Source: Symploca sp. SIO3C6 (lineage in GTDB: Bacteria > Cyanobacteriota > Cyanobacteriia > Cyanobacteriales > Coleofasciculaceae). From it: a stretch of 64,000 bases of DNA. The position numbers and the translations under genes were made by a program. Below, in pieces: positions 141-57,289 of this stretch. The number at the start of each line of letters is the position of its first letter. Within the stretch, counting starts at the first letter, position 1. The stretch is from NCBI GenBank assembly GCA_010692425.1, contig JAAHHJ010000033.1, positions 1 through 64,000 on the forward strand, given 5' to 3'. The notes beneath the pieces are model-generated. The model had not been told where the DNA came from. It saw nothing but the letters and a program-made list of their open reading frames with translations, and did no database searches.

Positions 141-337
141 GGTTTATACACCTTTTAGCAGGTTTGAGTAGGTTTTTCGTAGCAGGATAATCTTTATATT
201 GTATGTTGTGTTTTTCTCGTGAATTGGATAATTTATTGCTTGGAGTTCCCTAAAAGAATTTCGCAAGCAAGGTATTAGATACGAGGTGCTAGGCTCAGAA
301 GATGGGAAGTGAACTCCTGACTCATGACTCCTGTTCA

Positions 338-3300
338 ATGAGCAATTATCAATATCAAGTCGGTGGTCGTTTGCCTATTAATGCACCTAGCTATGTCGTG
401 CGCCAAGCAGACGAACAACTCTATCAAGCCTTGAAAGCTGGGGAGTTTTGCTATGTACTCAACTCCCGTCAGATGGGCAAGTCCAGCTTACAGGTGCGAG
501 TTTGCCAAAAATTGCTCAATGAAGGTATTGCTTGTGGAGCCGTTGACCTCTCTAGCATTGGTAGTTATGAGACCACACCACAGCAGTGGTATGCCGACAT
601 CCTTCGCTGCCTAGTGCGCTCTTTTCGACTTCAGCACAAGTTCCATTTAGGCAATTGGTTACAACAAAATCAATATCTCTCGCCAGTTTCCCGCTTGGGT
701 GAGTTCCTAGAGCAAGTACTTCCAGAATTTATTGCTCAACCGATCGTGATTTTTATCGATGAAATCGATAGTATCCTGCGCCTACGGTTTAATAACGATG
801 ACTTTTTTGCTCTGATTAGAACTTGTCATCAATCTGGGCATTTGACCTTTGCCCTGTTGGGAGTGGCAACCCCCTCAGATTTGATTGGCAATAAAACTAT
901 GACCCCATTTAATATTGGTCAGGCAATTGAACTCAAAGGTTTTACTCGAAAAGAAGCCATGCCCTTAATAGCAGGATTAGAGGGCAAGGTTAAACATCCA
1001 CAGCAAGTGATGGAACAGGTATTGAGTTGGAGTGGGGGACAACCATTTCTGACTCAAAAATTATGCCAGTTGATTGTCAATGAAGTAGAGTGGGGCAGAT
1101 GGGAGGATTGGGAATCTTGTACTTCCAGAATCAGGCAGATTGTACACCAACAGATTATCGACCATTGGGTAGCCCGAGATGAACCCCCCCATTTAAGGAC
1201 GATACGTGACCGTATTCTTAAAGATGAGCAACATGCAGGGCGATTACTAGGAAAATATCAGATGCTGCTGCAAGGGCAGGAAGTGAAAGTAGATGACTCT
1301 GCTTCCCAAATGGAATTGCTGTTGAGCGGGTTGGTGGTAAGGGAAAAGGGAAAACTGAAGGTTCATAACCGCATTTATCAGGAGGTGTTCAACCTTTCAT
1401 GGGTGGAAATGCAATTAAGTTATTTGCGCCCCTACTCGCAGTTGCTGGAGGGTTGGGTAGCCTCGCAGCAGGGTGACGAATCGCGACTGTTGCGGGGGCA
1501 AGCCTTGAAGGAGGCGCAAGAGTGGGCATCGGGCAAAAGCTTGAGCAACATTGATTATCAGTTTTTGGCTGCTAGTCAACAGTTAGACCGACAAGAAGTT
1601 CAACAGGCTTTGGAGGCAGCCACAGAAGCATCTAAGATCCTAGCTCAGGCAAATCAGACCTTGAAGGAGGCGCAACGGCAAGCCAAGCAGGTAATTCGCG
1701 GAGGACTTGCTTTTACCGTATTTGTGGCAGTTGGCTTATTGGGATTAGCAGGCTCTCTATCATTGCAAGCTTTTGAAGACAAACACCAGGTTCTCATGAG
1801 CGAAATCAAGACTCTGAGCATCTCTTCGGAAGCACATTTGAAAGCAAATTACCAATTGGATGCCCTGTTGGAAGCTCTTAAAGCTGCAATCAAACTCCAA
1901 AATAAACATCAAAGCTTTCGCTTTCAACTGTCATTCTTTAAAAAAAGTTTATTAGCCGATATCGAGATTCACGAGCAGGCGGAAATCGCACTGCGGCAGG
2001 CAGTTTACTGGGTTAGAGAGGTAAACCGCTTGCAGGCACATACTCATGCAGTCAGGAGTATCAGTTTTAGCCCCGATGGTAAGCTTATTGCCACTGCTAG
2101 TGCCGACAAAACTGCTAAACTTTGGAGTCTTGAAGGCAAAAAACTACTCACCCTCTCAGGGCATAAAAATTGGGTTAACAGTGTCAGTTTTAGCCCCGAT
2201 GGTAAGCTCCTTGCTACTGCCAGTGCCGACAAAACTGCTAAACTCTGGAGTCTTGAAGGCAAAGAACTACTCACCCTCTCAGGGCATGAAAATCGAGTCA
2301 ATAGCGTCAGTTTTAGCCCTGACGGTAAAATCCTTGCCACTGCTAGTGGGGACAAAACTGCTAAACTCTGGAGCCAAGATGGTCGTTATCTCAATACCCT
2401 CCAAGGACATGAGGCAGCAGTGAGGAGTGTCAGTTTCAGCCCTGACGGTAAGTTTATTGCCACTGCTAGTGCCGACAAAACAGCCAAACTCTGGAGCAGA
2501 GATGGTCGCTATCTCAAAACTCTCAAGGGACATAGCGCCACAATCAGAAGTGTCAGTTTTAGCCCTGACGGTAAGCTTATTGCCACTGCTAGTGCCGACA
2601 AAACCGTCAAACTCTGGAGCCAGAATGGTCGCTATCTCAATACCCTCGAGGGACACACAGCTACCATCAGATGTATCAGTTTCAGCCCCGATGGTAAGCT
2701 CCTTGCCACTGCTAGTGCTGACAAAACCGTCAAACTCTGGAGCCGAGATGGTCATTACCTCAATACCTTCCAGGGGCATGATTCTCGCCTCAATAGAGTT
2801 AGTTTCAGCCCTGATGGTAAGCTCATTGCTACTGCTAGTGAGGACACGACTGTTAAACTTTGGAGCCGAAATGGTCACTACCTCAATACTCTTCAAGGAC
2901 ACGATGCTCGCATCGACAGCGTCAGTTTCAGCCCTGATGGCAAGCTCATTGCTACTGCTGGTGAGGACACGACTGTCAAGCTTTGGAACCAAGATGGTTA
3001 CTATCTCAACACCCTTAATGGTCATGATAATTTAGTCTGGAGTGTTAGTTTCAGCCCTGACGGTAAGACCATTGCCACTGCCGGTTGGGATAAAACGGTT
3101 AAATTCTGGAACCGACAGGGGAAAGAGTTACTCACCATTCAGGGGCATGATGATTGGATCTGGAGTGTCAGTTTCAGTCCTGATGGCAAGACCATTGCCA
3201 CTGCTAGTGAGGATAACACTGTCAAACTTTGGAACCAAGATGGTCAATATCTGAAAACCCTTGAGGGTCATGATGGGGCAGTTAGGAGTGTTAGTTTCAG

Positions 3301-3862
3301 CCCCAATGGCAAGCTCATTGCCACTGCTAGTGAGGATCATACTGCTAAACTCTGGAACCAAGATGGTCAATACCTGAAAACTCTATATGGACACGAGGCG
3401 GTAGTCAGGAGTGTCAGTTTCAGCCCCGATGGTGGGATAATTGCTACTGCTAGTGAGGACAAAACTGTCAAACTCTGGAACCGACAGGGGAAAGAGCTTC
3501 TAAGCCTCCAGGGGCATGATGAGCAAATCAACAGTTTCAGCTTTAGCCCTGACGGCGAAACCATGGCTACTGCCAGTAAGGATAAAACTGTTAGATTATG
3601 GAACCGACAGGGGAAAGAGGTCTTAATTCTCCGTGGACATAACGATGAAGTTAGAAGCCTCAGCTTCAGCCCTGATGGTCAAACTCTAGTTTCCTCCGAT
3701 GCTGGTGGCAGATTGATTCTGTGGAACTTGAATTTAGATATAAGTTTAAAATCTATGATGTTGCAGGCTTGCAACCAATTGCATAATTACCTAAAGTATA
3801 ATCCAGATGTTAACCAGAGCGATCGCCTTTTGTGCAAGGAAATCGATCAAAACCTGAGATGA
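338..3862 (+). CDS. AAA-like ATPase with 14 WD40 repeats
   Basis: Protein of 1174 residues. The start is set at 338 ([13 protein letters not shown]) because the downstream paralogue begins [13 protein letters not shown]; the ATG at 302 lies in repeat-like sequence and would add 12 unmatched residues. Order: AAA_35-type ATPase domain (about 1-380) with P-loop QMGKSS (residues 45-50) and Walker B-like FIDEID; coiled region about 420-450; one membrane segment about 451-478; 14 WD40 repeats from about residue 565 to 1135, enough for two seven-bladed propellers; a short Cys-containing tail. In cyanobacteria this ATPase domain is commonly fused to WD40 or signalling domains, and the role is probably a membrane-linked sensor or scaffold. 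The next gene starts 16 bases later, so the two probably form an operon. The ligand is unknown. Confidence 0.85.
2030..3735 (+). repeat. 14 WD40-coding repeats of about 123 bp
   Basis: Fourteen direct repeats of about 41 codons, each with the core [15 protein letters not shown] followed by D-K-T-x-K-L-W. Most units share near-identical core codons while the residues just after GH (for example NW, NR, AA, SR, AR) vary. High DNA identity between units suggests recent amplification or gene conversion within the gene. Confidence 0.9.
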
Positions 3863-6727: not shown

Positions 6728-6776
6728 TTATTACTTATTACTTATTACTTATTACTTATTACTTATTACTTATTAC
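6728..6776. repeat. Heptamer tandem repeat (TTATTAC)x7
   Basis: Seven perfect copies of TTATTAC lie between convergent genes. This is the heptanucleotide STRR type of repeat known from heterocystous cyanobacteria such as Calothrix. No coding role is visible. Confidence 0.95.
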
Positions 6777-49839: not shown

Positions 49840-49980
49840 GGGACACACAGGAATTTAAGCTTGAGGAGTGAGTTGAAAGGCTCAAGTATGCTCTGTAAGA
49901 CCAAAAGCTAGTTCAAGGAAGCTAGTAGTTTGGCAAGATCAGCCCAAGAATCCCCGTACCTTCAGGTCGGGGAGTGTCAA
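49840..49980 (+). mobile_element. IS200/IS605-type right end with omega-RNA-like sequence
   Basis: The plus strand ends in a hairpin CCCCG...CGGGG with inner ACCT/AGGT (49952-49972), then AGTGTCAA, the usual form of an IS605-family right end. The preceding 100 bases (TTGGCAAGATCAGCCCAAG and upstream) look like the omega-RNA part beside such ends. No tnpB frame survives. The end lies inside the last codons of the disrupted NTPase gene. Confidence 0.6.
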
Positions 49981-50556
49981 ATAGGGATTATCCAAGAATT
50001 CTTTTAGTGCCTCTTTACCACCAGCTTGCAAGGCACTGACAAGTCTTTGTCTAGTATTGGCTGGCATCGATAATTTAACAAAGGCGGCTTTTTCGGTATC
50101 AGTGGCGTTGGGGTTGGTTTCTTCTAATTGTTTCAATAATCGTTGGATTTCTGCAGCGGCTTCGGCTAGGGTTTGCTTTTGCTCCGGCGCATAATTATTT
50201 TGAATTGCTCTAAATTCTTGCTTCCCGCCACTTTGAGTAGCATCGACAAAGCTATTTTGAGAATGACGTTGATCGTATTTGGAGCGATAGGAGTCTGACA
50301 TAAATTCACTTACCGCTTTATTCTCAACATTAATAAGTCGGCTTGCCTGTAGTCTAGCAATTTCCATTAAGTTCTGGTTTTGCTGCTGATAAAGGGCAAT
50401 CATCTTATCCTTGGCTGAAGTGAAGGTTAACTCTGGACGAGAATTAAAGCGCTGGATAAATTGATCACTAACTACATGGTCTTTGGTTTCAGCAGCACAT
50501 TGAATTAGAGTTTCCCTTAATACCAAAGCTTGCTCAAAGTTTAATAAAGTTGCCAA
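49939..50556 (-). pseudogene. C-terminal fragment of the HEAT-NACHT gene
   Basis: A 205-codon frame with no real start (first codon TTG), starting LATLLNFEQALVLRETLIQC. It continues the upstream fragment after a one-base insertion at 50560/50561: removing one A joins VYL to LLATLLNFEQ without a gap. The last residues (TLPDLKVRGFLG) are translated from the IS right-end hairpin, so the native C-terminus has been replaced. The helical, Gln/Lys-rich content has no catalytic motif. Confidence 0.75.
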
Positions 50557-51148
50557 CAGTTAGGTAAACACCGCGAAATCTGGGATCCTGAAGGTGCTGT
50601 TGTTGGCGCTGTTGATTATCTTCCTTAAGGAAAGTTTGGACAATAAAGAATTCTTGGATTTTATCGTGGCGGAAATACCATTCTCGATAACTTTTACCTG
50701 AAGCATCCCGAAACTGGCGCGTCAGTACCATTTTGTGCCTTTCCATGCATTGCAATTCCTCCCGCCAAGGTTCTTCTGGGATAGTAATTTGGTCATTAAG
50801 GCGCATTTGGTAGACGGTTTCGGCAAATTTGGAGAGGGGAAAAGGGCGAAAGTAAAGCTGTTGGTATTCAGCAGCCATAATCTCATACTGCTGTTGTTGG
50901 AGCTTGAGTAAGTCTGGTTCTTTTCCCTGGGCTAATAGTTGTGCCACTAGGGTTAAATCCATGGGATTGGAAAGAAGCCGACGCACTGCTGCTAACTCAT
51001 CTTTCGATTGTTGTTGGTTAAGTTGGGTTTTTAAATAATCTTCACAAGCTTGCTCGTATTCCACACCTAATACTGGTGCATCTTCCGGCAAAATAGCTTG
51101 ACGAGAGATAAGGAATTCTAGAATTTGTTGGCGCTTGAGGGGTTGCAA
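50534..51148 (-). pseudogene. Middle fragment of the HEAT-NACHT gene
   Basis: A 204-codon frame in the same reading frame as the large upstream piece, separated from it only by a TGA at 51185-51187. The sequence after the TGA reads EWTPPATAKTYVLQPLKRQQ, natural continuation of the NTPase (TTQP then EW.PPAT). It holds the helical region that follows a NACHT-type core, including WYFRHDKIQEFFIVQTFL, a typical STAND motif. It ends early through the frameshift at 50560. Confidence 0.78.
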
Positions 51149-51184: not shown

Positions 51185-54100
51185 TCAAGGTTGCGTGGTA
51201 ATAATAATATGCCCTTGGAAGTGACGCTCGACAAAACTGCTAATCGTGGCGCGGGTATCAGGGGTGACTTCGTTGAGTCCGTCTATACAGATATCAAGGG
51301 TATTGTAGTCAATTAGACTTTGCAGGAATTTAGAGTCATGGGCAGATATGGGTAATTTGGCTTGAATCGCTTCAATGACACCAGCAGTGCATTTACTGGC
51401 TGGGAGGTAAACAGCCAATCGCCCAGAGGTTTTGACCAAGTTGCGTAGAAATATGGATTTGCCCAAGCCTGATTCCCCTTCTAAAACTATGGGTGATTGG
51501 AGTTGGGAAATAACAGTTTGAATGGGTTGGGTATGGATTGCTCTTTTGATTTGGATGTGGGAGTTGGGAAAGTAAGCTTGGGTATCAAAGCTATCTAAGT
51601 TGGCATCGGCAAGGAGAATTTTGCTAAAGGGAGCGAGTAATCGGTAGCGCAAAAAGGGAATAGCAGTGAGAGCAATGCCGATATAGCCTAAGCCGAAAAG
51701 TTGGCGAGTTTTTCGGTTCCAAATGAGGGTTTGGACTTGGCGAGAATGGGGATAAGCTGTGATCAGAATCAGCCATAAACTGAGATGGGCTAGCCAAAGT
51801 TTGAAGAAAATCAGAAACCACTGCTTTCCTTCTAAGGCGATAATTTTGGGGTTGACGACGGCAGCAAGTCTAGAGTCTTTAGATTTAAGATTCTGGTAGT
51901 GCTCTTTGAGCAGAGGCATATCTGCCGGTTTCCAGTTAACCTGGTTAACAACTACGGCAATCTGTTTTTGTAAATCATCGTGCAGTGTAGGAAAAGATTT
52001 ACTAGGTTCCCATACTTGGGCAAATAGCCGGAGAACTTTTACCCCCTCTTGGCGATTTAGGGGACTAATTTCATCAGGATATTTTTTAGGTAAGCCCAGC
52101 CACTTGATTAACAGAAGTGAGTCTTTTTCGCCGCTACTGAGTAAATAGGAGAGAAAACGTAGTATTGGTGCTTCTCCCTGGTAGCAGCGGTAAACTTCAT
52201 TTAATACAGCAAGTAAGTCTTTTAACTCTAATGTTCCCATCTCCCCCAGAGCTTCTGCTGCACTGTAACGGACAGGCCTATCTGAGTGGTTCAAAAGTTT
52301 AACCATATCGGGAGCAAATTTAGAGTCAGCTGCACCTATGTTCCCCAGAGTTCTTGCTGCCCTATCACGGACCCTCGAATCTGAGTCGCTCAAAAGTTTA
52401 ACGATATCGGGAGCAAATTTAGAGCCAGCTGCACCCATCTTCCCCAGAGCATATGCTGCATGAAAACGGACCCTCGAATCTGAGTCGCTCAAAAGTTTAA
52501 CGATATCGGGAGCAAATTTAGAGCCAGCTGCACCCATCTTCCCCAGAGCATATGCTGCCCTAAAACGGACCCTCGAATCTGAGTCGCTCAAAAGTTTAAC
52601 GATATCGGGAGCAAATTTAGAGCCAGCTGCACCTATGTTCCCCAGAGCTTCTGCTGCCCTAAAACGGACATTCCCATCTGAGTGGCTCAAAAGTTTAACG
52701 ATATCGGGAGCAAATTTAGAGCCAGCTGCACCCATCTTCCCCAGAGCATATGCTGCCCTAGAACGGACATCACTATCTGAGTGGCTCAAAAGTTTAACGA
52801 TATCGGGAGCAAATTTAGAGCCAGCTGCACCCATCTTCCCCAGAGCTTCTGCTGCACTATCACGGACATACCTATCTGAGTGGCTCAAAAGTTTAACCAT
52901 ATCGGGAGCAAATTTAGAGTCAGCTGCACCTATGTTCCCCAGAGCATATGCTGCACTATCACGGACATACCTATCTGAGTGGCTCAAAAGTTTAACCATA
53001 TCGGGAGCAAATTTAGAGCCAGCTGCACCCATCTTCCCCAGAGCTTCTGCTGCACTATCACGGACATAGCTATCTGAGTCGCTCAAAAGTTTAACCATAT
53101 CGGGAGCATACTTAGAGCCAGCTGCACCCATGTTCCCCAGAGCTTCTGCTGCATGAAAACGGACCCTCGAATCTGAGTGGCTCAAAAGTTTAACGATATC
53201 GGGAGCAAATTTAGAATCAGCTGCACCCATGTTCCTCAGAGCTTCTGCTGCACTTTTACTGACATCCCAATCTGAGTCGCTCAAAAGTTTAACGATATCG
53301 GGAGCATACTTAGAGCCAGCTGCACCCATCTTCCCCAGAGCTTCTGCTGCACTTTTACGGACAAAGCGATCTGAGTCGCTCAAAAGTTTAACCATATCGG
53401 GAGCATACTTAGAGCCAGCTGCACCCATCTTCCCCAGAGCTTCTGCTGCATGAGAACGGACCCTCCTATCTGAGTCGCTCAAAAGTTTAACCATATCGGG
53501 AGCAAATTTAGAGCCAGCTGCACCTATGTTCCCCAGAGCTTCTGCTGCCCTAAAACGGACATTCCCATCTGAGTCGCTCAAAAGTTTAACCATATCGGGA
53601 GCAAATTTAGAGCCAGCTGCACCCATCTTCCCCAGAGCATATGCTGCCCTAAAACGGACCCTCGAATCTGAGTCGCTCAAAAGTTTAACGATATCGGGAG
53701 CAAATTTAGAATCAGCTGCACCCATCTTCCCCAGAGCTTCTGCTGCATGAGAACTGACATCACTATCTGAGTCGCTCAAAAGTTTAACGATATCGGGAGC
53801 ATACTTAGAGCCAGCTGCACCCATCTTCCCCAGAGCTTCTGCTGCACCAGAACGGACCCTCGAATCTGAGTGGCTCAAAAGTTTAACGATATCGGGAGCA
53901 AATTTAGAATCAGCTGCACCCATCGTCATCAGAGCATATCCTGCACTAAAACTGACATCCCAATTTGAGTCGCTCAAAAGTTTAACGATATCGGGAGCAA
54001 ATTTAGAGCCAGCTGCACCCATATTCCCCAGAGCATATGCTGCACTAGAACGGACATAGCTATCTGAGTCGCTCAAAAGTTTAACGATATCGGGAGCAAA

Positions 54101-54796
54101 TTTAGAGCCAGCTGCACCCATCTTCCCCAGAGCAACTGCTGCATGAGAACGGACATAGCTATCTGAGTCGCTCAAAAGTTTAACGATATCGGGAGCAAAT
54201 TTAGAGCCAGCTGCACCCATCTTCCCCAGAGCTTCTGCTGCACTAGAACGGACATCAATATCTGAGTCGCTCAAAAGTTTAACGATATCGGGAGCAAATT
54301 TAGAGCCAGCTGCACCCATCTTCCCCAGAGCTTCTTGTGCACTATAACGGACATCACTATCTGAGTGGCTCAAAAGTTTAACGATATCGGGAGCAAATTT
54401 AGAGCCAGCTGCACCCATCTTCCCCAGAGCTTCTTGTGCACTATAACGGACTCTGAACTGAATCGACTCATTCTCATTCTCATAGGCCAATAACTTTGCA
54501 ATCTGCTCAACTTTGTCATTGCGAATCTCTAGGGGTTGCTCGAGTTCATCCAATTTATATTCAGACAATTTGTTCAAAGCTTCAACCCATACCAAGGGAT
54601 CTGAGTCATCGAGTGCTGCTACAATCCCCTTTATCTGCCCAGGTTCTGGCTCAGGCGGTGATCCTTGAGCGTGACTCCAATTAACAATCAAAAGTAGAGC
54701 TAATAGCAGTGCTAACAACTGAGATAGCCACCGTTTTATAAAAGTCTGAAGAGTTGGGCGCAGTTTTCGTCCCTTGGTATAGCCTCGATGGGTCAT
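51185..54796 (-). CDS. HEAT-repeat NACHT-like NTPase, prematurely stopped
   Basis: 1203 residues as read, originally about 1600. Order: hydrophobic N-terminal segment ending SHAQG (about 22-45, signal peptide or anchor); about 22 HEAT-like units of 33 residues (about 115-845; core AAEALGKMGAAGSKFAPDIVKLL); a helical linker; two hydrophobic segments (about 1000-1022 and 1040-1062); then a P-loop GESGLGKS (about 1108-1115) and Walker B LDICIDGLNEV, as in NACHT/STAND ATPases. It stops at TGA 51185-51187 within the NTPase domain, right after ITTQP. STAND proteins switch by nucleotide exchange and serve in signalling and conflict systems. Whether the shortened protein is made is unknown. Confidence 0.85.
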   Translation of the reverse strand: MTHRGYTKGRKLRPTLQTFIKRWLSQLLALLLALLLIVNWSHAQGSPPEPEPGQIKGIVAALDDSDPLVWVEALNKLSEYKLDELEQPLEIRNDKVEQIAKLLAYENENESIQFRVRYSAQEALGKMGAAGSKFAPDIVKLLSHSDSDVRYSAQEALGKMGAAGSKFAPDIVKLLSDSDIDVRSSAAEALGKMGAAGSKFAPDIVKLLSDSDSYVRSHAAVALGKMGAAGSKFAPDIVKLLSDSDSYVRSSAAYALGNMGAAGSKFAPDIVKLLSDSNWDVSFSAGYALMTMGAADSKFAPDIVKLLSHSDSRVRSGAAEALGKMGAAGSKYAPDIVKLLSDSDSDVSSHAAEALGKMGAADSKFAPDIVKLLSDSDSRVRFRAAYALGKMGAAGSKFAPDMVKLLSDSDGNVRFRAAEALGNIGAAGSKFAPDMVKLLSDSDRRVRSHAAEALGKMGAAGSKYAPDMVKLLSDSDRFVRKSAAEALGKMGAAGSKYAPDIVKLLSDSDWDVSKSAAEALRNMGAADSKFAPDIVKLLSHSDSRVRFHAAEALGNMGAAGSKYAPDMVKLLSDSDSYVRDSAAEALGKMGAAGSKFAPDMVKLLSHSDRYVRDSAAYALGNIGAADSKFAPDMVKLLSHSDRYVRDSAAEALGKMGAAGSKFAPDIVKLLSHSDSDVRSRAAYALGKMGAAGSKFAPDIVKLLSHSDGNVRFRAAEALGNIGAAGSKFAPDIVKLLSDSDSRVRFRAAYALGKMGAAGSKFAPDIVKLLSDSDSRVRFHAAYALGKMGAAGSKFAPDIVKLLSDSDSRVRDRAARTLGNIGAADSKFAPDMVKLLNHSDRPVRYSAAEALGEMGTLELKDLLAVLNEVYRCYQGEAPILRFLSYLLSSGEKDSLLLIKWLGLPKKYPDEISPLNRQEGVKVLRLFAQVWEPSKSFPTLHDDLQKQIAVVVNQVNWKPADMPLLKEHYQNLKSKDSRLAAVVNPKIIALEGKQWFLIFFKLWLAHLSLWLILITAYPHSRQVQTLIWNRKTRQLFGLGYIGIALTAIPFLRYRLLAPFSKILLADANLDSFDTQAYFPNSHIQIKRAIHTQPIQTVISQLQSPIVLEGESGLGKSIFLRNLVKTSGRLAVYLPASKCTAGVIEAIQAKLPISAHDSKFLQSLIDYNTLDICIDGLNEVTPDTRATISSFVERHFQGHIIITTQP
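52262..54452 (-). repeat. 22 near-identical 99-bp HEAT-coding repeats
   Basis: Direct repeats of 99 bp, most identical at more than 85 of 99 positions by eye. Variation is concentrated in the codons after SDSD and VR (for example RYVRDS, SRVRFR, SDVSSH, GNVRFR), on the first helix, while the AAxALGKMGAAGSK and APDIVKLL parts hardly change. Clear sign of recent amplification and unequal recombination. Confidence 0.95.
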
Positions 54797-55103: not shown

Positions 55104-56391
55104 ATGCTTACCCTCAACTACACCTACCGCCTATATCCCGATGATTTGCAAGTCGAGCTACTCAATGAATGGCTCGAAATTTGCCGCAGTGCCTATAACT
55201 ATGCACTTAGGGAACTAAAGGATTGGATTGCTTCAAGGAAGTGTCCAGTAGATCGGTGTAGTTTGGAGTCGGAGTACATCATGAGTGCTGATTATCCTTT
55301 CCCTGGATATCAGCAACAACAGAATAACCTGCCCAAGGCAAAAAAAGAGTTCCCACGACTGGCGGCAGCGCCTTCCCAGGTATTGCAAACAACCATCAGG
55401 AGATTGCACGATGCTTGGGACTTTTTTCGGAAACGAGGTTATGGATTTCCTCGTTTCAAGAAGTATCGACAGATCAAGTCGATACTTTTTCCTCAGTTCT
55501 CCACCAATCCAATTACAGGATGGCAAATCAAGTTAGCCAAACTGGGAAAAGTTCAAATCAACTTGCACAGACCAATACCCGATGGTTTTGTGGTTAAGCA
55601 AGTTAGGATACTCAAAAAAGCAATGGGCTGGTTTGCTGTTATTAGTATTCAGTCTGACATCTCTATGCCAGACCCAGTACCGCACGGTCACTTCATTGGA
55701 GTAGATGTTGGGCTGAATAATTATCTAGCTACCAGTGATGGTTTCCTAGAGCCTGGTCGCAAGCTTTTCAAGACAGAGCATCGTCGGCTGAAAGTGCTAC
55801 AACGTAGACTGTCGAAGAAAAATAAACGTTCTAAGAACTACGATAAATCCAGAATCAAGGTAGAACATCAACATAACCACATCGCATTCAAGCGTAAAGA
55901 CTATCAGTTCAAATTGGCTCATAAATTGTGCGATATGGCTGATACCATCTTCGTCGAAGATATTGACTTCCGAATCATGGCCAAAGGGTTCCTAGGCAAG
56001 CACACCATTGATGCTGCCTTTGGACAATTCAGGACTATCCTTTCTTATGTAGGCAAGCAACGAGGTGTGTATGTTGCTGAAGTTAACCACAAGGGGACGT
56101 CTCAAACCTGTCCAAATTGCCGCATTGAAGTCAGCAAAGAACTCAAAGATAGATGGCACAGTTGTCCAGAATGTGGTTATGAAGCAGATAGAGACATAGC
56201 CTCGGCACAGGAAATCTGCAACCGAGGTTATGAGCAACTTAGTACCCAGGGACTCTGGGGGAAAGAAATTGGCTGTCAAGTCGGGCTGTCGGGGGCAATG
56301 AGCCTAGACAAGTGGCGCAGGGCAGCAATGTCTAACAGCGATGTTGGAAGCCCGCGCTGTAATCTCTGATTCAGCGCCGGGAGGATGTCAC
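54870..56391 (+). mobile_element. Stand-alone IS605-family TnpB element (no tnpA)
   Basis: Left end with imperfect palindromes (54878-54926 and 54984-55013), an intact tnpB (55104-56369) and a right-end hairpin (56351-56381) followed by AGGATGTCAC. No tnpA (Y1 transposase) lies in the element, so movement would need one in trans, as for IS1341-group elements. The left boundary is approximate. Confidence 0.75.
55104..56369 (+). CDS. tnpB: TnpB RNA-guided endonuclease
   Basis: A 421-residue protein. The N-terminal WED-like part (MLTLNYTYRLYPDDLQ, SAYNYALRE) precedes a RuvC domain with all three acidic motifs: Asp201 in GVDVGLNNYLA, Glu285 in FVEDIDF, and Asp364 in DRDIASAQ. A zinc ribbon has CPNC and CPECG (about 334-356). 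The protein is thus likely active as a guided DNA nuclease. Its last roughly 40 codons overlap the predicted omega RNA and right-end hairpin, as usual for TnpB. Confidence 0.95.
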   Translation: MLTLNYTYRLYPDDLQVELLNEWLEICRSAYNYALRELKDWIASRKCPVDRCSLESEYIMSADYPFPGYQQQQNNLPKAKKEFPRLAAAPSQVLQTTIRRLHDAWDFFRKRGYGFPRFKKYRQIKSILFPQFSTNPITGWQIKLAKLGKVQINLHRPIPDGFVVKQVRILKKAMGWFAVISIQSDISMPDPVPHGHFIGVDVGLNNYLATSDGFLEPGRKLFKTEHRRLKVLQRRLSKKNKRSKNYDKSRIKVEHQHNHIAFKRKDYQFKLAHKLCDMADTIFVEDIDFRIMAKGFLGKHTIDAAFGQFRTILSYVGKQRGVYVAEVNHKGTSQTCPNCRIEVSKELKDRWHSCPECGYEADRDIASAQEICNRGYEQLSTQGLWGKEIGCQVGLSGAMSLDKWRRAAMSNSDVGSPRCNL

Positions 56392-56431: not shown

Positions 56432-57289
56432 ATGCAACCTCCTGAAGGTTTCAGGATAACCGAAAAAGATAATCCTCAAGCGATTGAAGCTCTAGCCGAG
56501 TTCATCAAAAACTCGCAGAGTAAAGAAAGCCAGGGGCAAACCCCGCCAAATCTAGGAGAAACCGGGCAAGGAAACAACAGCGCTATAGATCCACTAGCTG
56601 AATTTTTCGGGAATAACCACAATCAAAATAGCTGGGGGCAAGCCTCACCCAATTTAGGAGGTACTCCACAAAATACCCCTATAAGTGGTAATGCTTATGT
56701 CGGTTCCACTTACGATCATTTTGGCGACTTTAGTCAATCTAGAAATACTCCCGACATCCCCAGGCTCAACCTCGCTCAACTACCACAATTACTATCTGTT
56801 GCGCTTGCAGAGAAACAAAATTTAGCCTCTATTCAGCTTATTTGTATCGACGGTAGTAAATTTATTGACCGCGATAACCCCGCAACCAAGATTTACAATG
56901 AGATGCGCAGACAGGGTTGCCCCACTAGGGAAGAAAGCAAACCCAAAACCATGATTGAACTGCAAGACTATTGGGATGAACTTATCCTAGAAAGCGATAA
57001 CCTAATAGTTATGGTGTTCTATCACAGACCATCACCATCAAAATCACCAATATTTAGCCAGACTTTCCTTGATGCCCTGAGCAAGTTTGAGGGAGCAATT
57101 TGTGTGGTGATTTCTCTGTCAGAGTTGTTGTCAGCAACGCCAGAAAGCAACATTGAGCCAGACAACCCTAGCTCCTTACACTCAGAAGAGATTAGGGAAT
57201 GGAATTCACTGCAATTATTCTCCCCCACTCAGCCCAAATTAGTAGATAATATCGTCGGCTGGATTAGTGCGATCGCACTCGAGCTATAG
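56432..57289 (+). CDS. Unrecognised protein downstream of TnpB
   Basis: A 285-residue protein that I cannot assign. The N-terminal third (about 1-105) is Gln/Asn/Gly/Pro-rich and holds two related blocks (IEALAEFIKNSQ and IDPLAEFFGNNH, each followed by WGQASPNLGG-like sequence). The C-terminal part (about 110-285) looks alpha/beta: LASIQLICIDGSKFI, NLIVMVFYHR, GAICVVISLSELL. No signal peptide. The ATG at 56432 lies 41 bases past the TnpB right end. It may have been associated with the broken NTPase before the element inserted, but this is speculation. Confidence 0.6.
   Translation: MQPPEGFRITEKDNPQAIEALAEFIKNSQSKESQGQTPPNLGETGQGNNSAIDPLAEFFGNNHNQNSWGQASPNLGGTPQNTPISGNAYVGSTYDHFGDFSQSRNTPDIPRLNLAQLPQLLSVALAEKQNLASIQLICIDGSKFIDRDNPATKIYNEMRRQGCPTREESKPKTMIELQDYWDELILESDNLIVMVFYHRPSPSKSPIFSQTFLDALSKFEGAICVVISLSELLSATPESNIEPDNPSSLHSEEIREWNSLQLFSPTQPKLVDNIVGWISAIALEL

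Follow-up and report, generated by a model that had tools for sequence, protein, structure and literature searches.

In the NOD-like receptors (NLRs) of fungi the repeats are cytosolic and C-terminal, and the bacterial NACHT/STAND defence proteins of the bNACHT and Avs kinds sense phage proteins in the cytosol. This article concerns a gene of the filamentous cyanobacterium Symploca sp. SIO3C6 in which a tandem array of HEAT units is joined to a NACHT-like ATPase; it lies in a stretch of 64,000 nucleotides, referred to as the window (positions 1 to 64,000 of contig JAAHHJ010000033.1, assembly GCA_010692425.1). Fungal NLRs with highly conserved WD, ANK or TPR repeats include the NWD genes of Podospora and others, and the Podospora set sequenced in the same work also included HEAT repeats (PMC4986451; papers here and below are cited for selected passages). 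Some of the targets diversified by diversity-generating retroelements (DGRs) are predicted to be periplasmic (PMC10907252), and prokaryotic WD40 proteins are enriched in Cyanobacteria (PMC5587647).

The locus has in common with the fungal NLRs a STAND NTPase coupled to internally conserved repeats, a changing number of repeats (here between species), concerted evolution, and positive selection at a few surface positions per repeat (PMC4986451). Unlike in those proteins, the array is N-terminal of the NTPase, behind a predicted signal peptide and before a predicted membrane helix, and is predicted to be periplasmic. With bNACHT and Avs proteins the locus shares a NACHT-like switch with an attached sensor; it differs from them in that the array is homogenised and predicted to be extracytoplasmic, and in that Pfam recognises no known effector domain in the receptor proteins. 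A further likeness is to the DGR-diversified antigen sensors found with NACHT systems, which also combine a variable sensor with a constant NTPase in multicellular hosts, although in those a reverse transcriptase acts on CLec domains (PMC10907252) whereas here it is the units that turn over. A DGR or a donor of cassettes was considered and rejected: all 18 matches to a two-unit query (198 bases) in the genome fall within the array, with no array-like or template-like DNA elsewhere, and Pfam finds no CLec domain, while a reverse transcriptase was not searched for. The units of alphaRep proteins, artificial binders from a man-made library, are 31 aa long, unlike the natural arrays described here, which have units of 31, 33 or 35 aa within a receptor-like protein. 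The two are alike in their HEAT-like units and in the same six variable positions (PMC3754942), and among the solved structures nearest to the array most are alphaRep proteins. Highly repetitive prokaryotic WD40 proteins likewise have repeats of high identity that vary at predicted sites of interaction, but these are beta-propellers, and no membrane receptor architecture is described for them in the passages of PMC5587647 drawn on here.

The reading favoured here, with a probability of roughly 55%, is that the gene is a damaged version of a STAND protein of receptor-like design, with a variable periplasmic HEAT array and a constant ATPase switch, diversified by recombination. A literature search among open-licence papers turned up no paper on a protein combining signal peptide, HEAT array, membrane helix and NACHT.

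The HEAT array and its variable positions

Tandem Repeats Finder reports an array at 52236-54451 with a period of 99, 22.4 copies, 89% matches, 1% indels and a score of 3169. On the minus strand this array resolves into 22 units, each exactly 33 aa or 99 bp (52241-54418, aa 127-852), all of them stop-free and in frame within a single frame of 1203 aa that runs from 54796 to 51185. The HEAT_2 family of Pfam scores 504.6 bits against a cut-off of 27.7, and the array is modelled as a helical solenoid of paired helices, as expected of HEAT repeats. A first-pass annotation, made from the letters alone, had described about 22 almost identical HEAT units whose differences gather around VRxxA. The run of 22 stands, but "almost identical" is too strong: identity between units averages 88.7% at the nucleotide level (82-98%) and 79.9% at the amino-acid level, with no DNA-identical pair among the 21 units compared.

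The place of the differences was rightly seen. Within the unit register MGAAGSKFAPDIVKLLSDSD-xx-VR-xx-AA-x-ALG-x, the six positions of highest entropy among the 33 are 21, 22, 25, 26, 29 and 33, namely the two residues on either side of VR, the x of AAxAL and the residue that follows ALG. Their spacing exactly matches that of the six positions randomised in the alphaRep library, 18, 19, 22, 23, 26 and 30; in one alphaRep complex every one of the 19 residues that A3 contributes to the interface lies at a randomised position, as against 11 of 22 for its partner (PMC3754942). A phmmer search of the Protein Data Bank with a six-unit piece returned 23 sequences, at least 15 of them named alphaRep. 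Foldseek with the array gave template modelling (TM) scores, normalised to the query, of 0.43-0.57 in the best 50 rows, where one alphaRep complex (6bzx) took fourth place. When aa 44-365 are modelled (the leader and about seven units; mean predicted local distance difference test, pLDDT, 89, built with four sequences), the six positions of one unit are predicted to share one helix, for example 104, 105, 108, 109, 112 and 116 in helix 104-117, as mapped by our own arithmetic. By analogy with the alphaRep work, this face may be the concave binding face of the solenoid. Across 15 arrays with at least eight units (G002 left out), variability at aligned positions is greatest at -1, +2, +6 and +3, counted from the V of VR.

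Nonsynonymous differences within arrays

Proportions of nonsynonymous (pN) and synonymous (pS) differences between units were obtained by simple counting rather than with a phylogenetic codon model. In the window array pN is 0.506 at the six positions, as against 0.048 in the framework, where pS is 0.028; 72% of the nonsynonymous differences fall in the six positions, a share that none of 20,000 random six-position sets reached. The test was extended to 17 of the 26 collected proteins, leaving aside G049 (four units), a paralogue group (G016par, G014par, G013b, G012b) and four proteins with too few anchors (G011, G012, G318, G338). Random position sets are beaten at p<0.05 in 16 of the 17 arrays (the exception, G143, has 0.0516), and pN at the six positions exceeds overall pS in 16 of 17 (exception G002), with the largest ratio of the two in the window. 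The nonsynonymous excess at a few positions per repeat that characterises diversifying NLRs of the fungal type is therefore found here, at positions not chosen blind. Entropy, model and pN all place amino-acid-changing hot spots on one helix per unit, in keeping with the first-pass annotation.

Four HEAT frames of the same genome were read as controls; of two others, L004 was parsed with a wrong period of 11 and is left out, and L008 gave no array. The homogeneous HEATs of L003 show the same enrichment at the six positions (p 0.002) and L002 shows it weakly (p 0.024), whereas L006 and L007, with three units each and thus a weak test, do not (p 0.20 and 0.52). L002 (G000:C68) and L003 (G000:C224) are themselves two further P-loop proteins, recognised by eye, with HEAT arrays.

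Architecture of the receptor-like protein

The 1203-aa frame (51185-54796, minus strand, as are all parts of this gene) encodes in order a signal peptide, the HEAT array, a linker, a membrane helix and the first half of a STAND/NACHT-like ATPase. A Sec signal peptide is predicted at aa 1-43 (54668-54796) from hydropathy and from the N-termini of relatives; it has a basic start, a leucine-rich Leu/Ala stretch and a cleavage-like site, SHA-QG. An N-terminus is available for 22 of the 26 collected proteins, the window and paralogues included, and all 22 are signal-peptide-like as judged by eye rather than with SignalP (that of G018b is partly masked), often ending in VSA, VNA, SHA or ALA. The linker (aa 853-993, 51818-52240) is fast-evolving in relatives and leads to a transmembrane helix predicted from hydropathy and the model (aa 994-1012, 51761-51817). 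Since the array stands between a signal peptide and a membrane helix, it is predicted to face the periplasm.

The ATPase half carries a Walker A motif or P-loop, GESGLGKS (aa 1107-1114, 51455-51478), and a Walker B region, DICIDGLNEV (aa 1168-1177, 51266-51295), and both GxSGxGKS and DICIDGLNE are invariant across 20 aligned members. Its model (pLDDT 77) shows a P-loop fold, a helical region and a strand pair that by eye resembles a winged helix. Foldseek with this model matches NOD2 best (1.2e-7, query TM 0.46), and also NLRP3, NAIP5 and Avs4 (8dgf), while a profile search ranks NLRC4 first (E 0.0019). Motifs and modelled fold are thus those of a NACHT or STAND NTPase, and motifs, profile and fold matches agree with the attachment to such an ATPase proposed in the first pass, which had missed the signal peptide, the membrane helix and the interruption downstream. 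Matches of the receptor proteins to NCBIfam and PADLOC models land on generic HEAT regions (for PADLOC, within the HEAT region of two receptor proteins) and were not used.

Turnover of units between species

All comparisons in this section are between species, with one genome per species. Between G016 and G014 the ATPase core agrees at 139 of 140 residues and the membrane block at 66 of 68, while the array agrees at 264 of 377 with 99 gap residues, the linker at 98 of 134 and the leader at 101 of 123. A paralogue whose layout is the same but whose HEATs are heterogeneous agrees between these two genomes at 258 of 300 HEAT residues, with 2 gap residues, and at 134 of 139 in the ATPase; over six pairs of four genomes its HEAT part ranges in identity from 0.847 to 0.957 and shows 0 or 2 gaps. 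Nine of ten planned species pairs could be compared (author-chosen and sharing genomes; the pair of the window and G016 is left out, as is G006). In every one of the nine, identity in the array (0.585-0.826) lies below that in the ATPase (0.814-0.994), and in seven the gap totals of the array are multiples of whole units. Unit numbers differ between species; the framework varies between lineages, as does the length of the unit (31, 33 or 35 aa).

The units of one array are closer to each other than to the closest other array in 12 of 16 arrays, the exceptions being G013, G393, G370 and G324, with G018a and G018b nearly tied. DNA-identical adjacent units occur in four of 16 arrays (G302, G086, G143, G061). 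Arrays of relatives therefore turn over, often by whole units, as had been anticipated; unequal crossing-over, the source proposed in the first pass, may be the route. The outcomes named there as contrary to the proposal, namely even or mostly synonymous variation and identical arrays in relatives, were not what was found.

Weighing the evidence

Against the reading of a periplasmic array diversified by recombination stand a number of observations on selection, on topology and on the state of the window copy, which are taken up here together with the alternatives that they favour. The alphaRep match was noticed after the entropies had been seen, so that the six-position test was not blind. Over all codons, pN/pS in the window is 2.80 (1.27-7.79 by bootstrap over columns), and values above 1 are also seen in G302 (3.32), G217 (2.17), G086 (1.54) and G143 (1.24); these values, like those at the six positions, are descriptive, and intervals are rough, since the units have common ancestors and the counts are uncorrected for multiple hits. 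In 17 of the 22 arrays for which the ratio was computed (of 26 proteins; G011, G012, G318 and G338 left out) it is below 1, and the lower bootstrap bound exceeds 1 in just three, the window, G302 and G086. Arrays of low pS, which we read as young, show the excess most clearly. Within the window array, neighbouring units show no significant extra likeness over distant ones (lag 1, p = 0.06), and higher-order blocks, also sought, were rejected: non-overlapping matches of two, three and four units are no better than shuffles (p 0.82, 0.86 and 0.98).

The overall ratios below 1 suit a neutral tandem expansion in which slippage and gene conversion homogenise the units and the six exposed positions vary simply for want of constraint, an account further favoured by the decay of several copies and by variation at these positions in HEAT-like repeats generally, as the residue choices in alphaRep follow natural frequencies (PMC3754942). 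Relaxed constraint alone should not, however, raise pN at the six positions above overall pS, as it is in all but one of the arrays tested and tenfold in the window; the lack of enrichment in L006 and L007 points, weakly, the same way. Neutral expansion is accordingly considered rather unlikely.

As to topology, a second, weaker and proline-containing hydrophobic stretch at aa 1033-1051 would make the orientation ambiguous if it spans the membrane, and it recurs above the hydropathy threshold in six of nine proteins. The repeats of classical NACHT proteins are cytosolic, and the array could be so too, either if the N-terminal stretch is not a signal peptide or if the membrane is crossed by each of the two hydrophobic stretches that precede the ATPase. 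This is judged very unlikely, given that every available N-terminus looks Sec-like by eye, the rhizobial ones at about 33% identity included. The second stretch also has the worse insertion scores (4.5 to 6.5, as against -0.3 to 4.2 for the first, on a simple scale) and is modelled as short helices, and the ectodomain and the cytosolic half differ in rate with a break near the membrane helix. In several pairs the divergence of leader and linker comes close to that of the array; the whole ectodomain is therefore fast and the membrane and ATPase part slow, and it is not the binding positions alone that change. Although 17 of 20 members match Pfam NACHT at E<=0.01, the curated cut-off is not reached in the members shown (17.5 against 26.7 for one), and hence the wording "NACHT-like STAND".

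The window gene itself is interrupted twice. An in-frame TGA (51185-51187) breaks the ATPase at a place that is open in the intact relatives shown; the ATPase half continues in the same frame at 50534-51148, where homology leaves the frame near the 3′ end, and the C-terminal part of the gene follows in another frame at 49939-50556. Together the three pieces match one continuous frame in the sole congener compared, Symploca sp. SIO2E9 (L011), where the counterpart of the last piece lies in that same frame. Recoding at the TGA was considered and rejected: the stops of L057, L058, L061, L062 and L076 are natural C-terminal ends and those in L063 and L070 are internal ones of their own (for L064, L065, L069, L072 and L073 the reading stopped short of the end). 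The TGA has the appearance of a lesion, and the window copy is probably inactive as a switch and no longer signals.

In the congener both flanks are syntenic at about 89-93% DNA identity and the ATPase half is in a single frame, but there is neither an array nor an N-terminus nor an upstream TnpB gene, and about 235 bp including G-rich repeats stand in their place. A 16-bp tandem repeat of the congener (L011 5808-5931) stands where the array half is missing. The absent gene is IS200/IS605-type TnpB-like and lies directly upstream of the receptor gene in the window (55104-56369, plus strand). Among other relatives, G017 has an IS607-like element, named by eye, inside the array, most of which is gone; G318 has a stop between membrane helix and P-loop; G061 has several stops; and in G109 the leader continues in frame into about one unit and the ATPase match counts one stop. 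Loss and decay are therefore common among the copies seen. The earlier interpretation is thus supported in part: the window copy is interrupted, and the congener offers a copy without array rather than another version of it.

These facts raise the question of whether the window copy is decaying junk, its unit number and order partly a product of assembly, from which no function can be read. The genome is a draft of 289 contigs, so that the array may be mis-assembled in length, and in G012 and G338 the contig ends before the array does. This view is nonetheless held to be unlikely, considering that all 22 units remain in frame without stops, that the window leads all arrays in the ratio of six-position pN to overall pS, and that relatives from genomes of one to five contigs (G302, G370, G399, G324, G086, G143) show the same design.

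Distribution and relatives on plasmids

A profile of the ATPase is positive in 19 of 386 sampled cyanobacterial genomes (E<=1e-20), in three of which (G203, G269, G307) the match is a C-terminal piece. In a draw of the same size, treated as the same because the handles visible in both lists agree, 80 genomes match PF03574, which we take to be the HetR family. All 19 positives are among these 80 and none of the 306 others is positive (Fisher 1.6e-14, ignoring shared ancestry and genome size). The hetR gene marks filamentous cyanobacteria, and in this sample the cyanobacterial family is restricted to genomes with hetR, in keeping with the first pass. A C-terminal query was matched in 12 of 20 family genomes, its own included, in some via the linker only.

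Relatives also occur on four plasmid records, one from Calothrix PCC 7716, two from Rhizobium leguminosarum and one from Mesorhizobium, all with a signal-peptide-like start; the rhizobial ones are diverged, at about 33% identity. The latter (L098-L100) are relatives of the membrane-ATPase core, and Pfam finds no repeats in the N-terminal region of the two scanned (L098 and L099). The start of L098 is apparently annotated too late, and a gene of about 500 bp, annotated as hypothetical, follows each of the three.

The same receptor might serve self/non-self or kin recognition between filaments, or bind diverse extracellular ligands, rather than act in defence against phages or predators. The predicted exposure to the periplasm and the restriction of sampled cyanobacterial positives to hetR-bearing genomes would suit such a role, as would the part that fungal NLRs with such repeats play in incompatibility (PMC4986451). 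Plasmid carriage and rhizobial relatives suit a mobile defence at least equally, however, and this analysis found no link to filament contact or fusion; a role of this kind in place of defence is regarded as doubtful.

Neighbouring genes and other observations

Divergent from the receptor gene, at 56432-57289 (plus strand), lies a gene for a stand-alone protein with a C-terminal NCAB1 domain (in Pfam, NACHT C-terminal alpha/beta 1), which is kept in the congener and not across the wider family. It is matched in six of 19 family genomes at E<=0.001, its own included, and beyond short pieces the protein exceeds 50% identity just in G001 (87%, full length) and G019 (54%, residues 106-228). With matches so sparse it is not a conserved partner, and it was rejected as an operon partner. 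A second repeat-array protein is encoded at 302-3862 (plus strand), a frame of 1186 aa in which a WD40 unit of 123 bp recurs about 12.5 times (77% matches). Many short tandem repeats with units of 7-8 bp, a good part of them G/C-rich and GGGAGATG-like, occur in the window at 6728, 9240, 31371, 40265, 49483, 57463 and 58540. In G014 a foreign-looking block (L033 565-5684, G014:C1) lies directly upstream of an intact receptor gene; its frames are by eye transpeptidase-like, protein-kinase-like, FHA-like and serine-hydrolase-like, a run of N stands near its start, and it is either acquired DNA or contamination.

Proposed mechanism and significance

In intact relatives the Sec signal peptide would send the HEAT solenoid to the periplasm, one helix would span the inner membrane, and the cytosolic NACHT-like ATPase would act as the switch. 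Each HEAT unit would present six side chains on one helix, the array forming a long modular binding surface in which recombination duplicates, removes and homogenises units while selection maintains differences at the binding residues. Specificity could thus change without the switch being touched. By analogy with NLRs, the binding of a ligand, as the presumed trigger, would relieve the ATPase or nucleate it, and ATP-dependent switching would then give rise to an output.

A bolder proposal, put forward tentatively and as clearly short of an even chance, is that of a bacterial transmembrane NLR in which an alphaRep-like HEAT array in the periplasm, remade again and again through recombination, recognises extracellular proteins of phage, predator or neighbour and signals via the cytosolic NACHT-like switch. 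The protein would then be a germline-encoded, fast-changing surface receptor of filamentous cyanobacteria with relatives on plasmids. If true, this would be a bacterial receptor class that couples an NLR-type switch to the outside-in arrangement known from surface receptors, a binding face diversified at the same places that protein engineers picked for artificial binders, and a bacterial counterpart of the repeat diversification of fungal NLRs. Thanks to the six-position pattern, a search for ligands with purified ectodomains can be put to a direct test, and the hetR-only distribution among the sampled cyanobacteria is relevant to the suggestion that immune-like systems are something in which multicellular bacteria invest.

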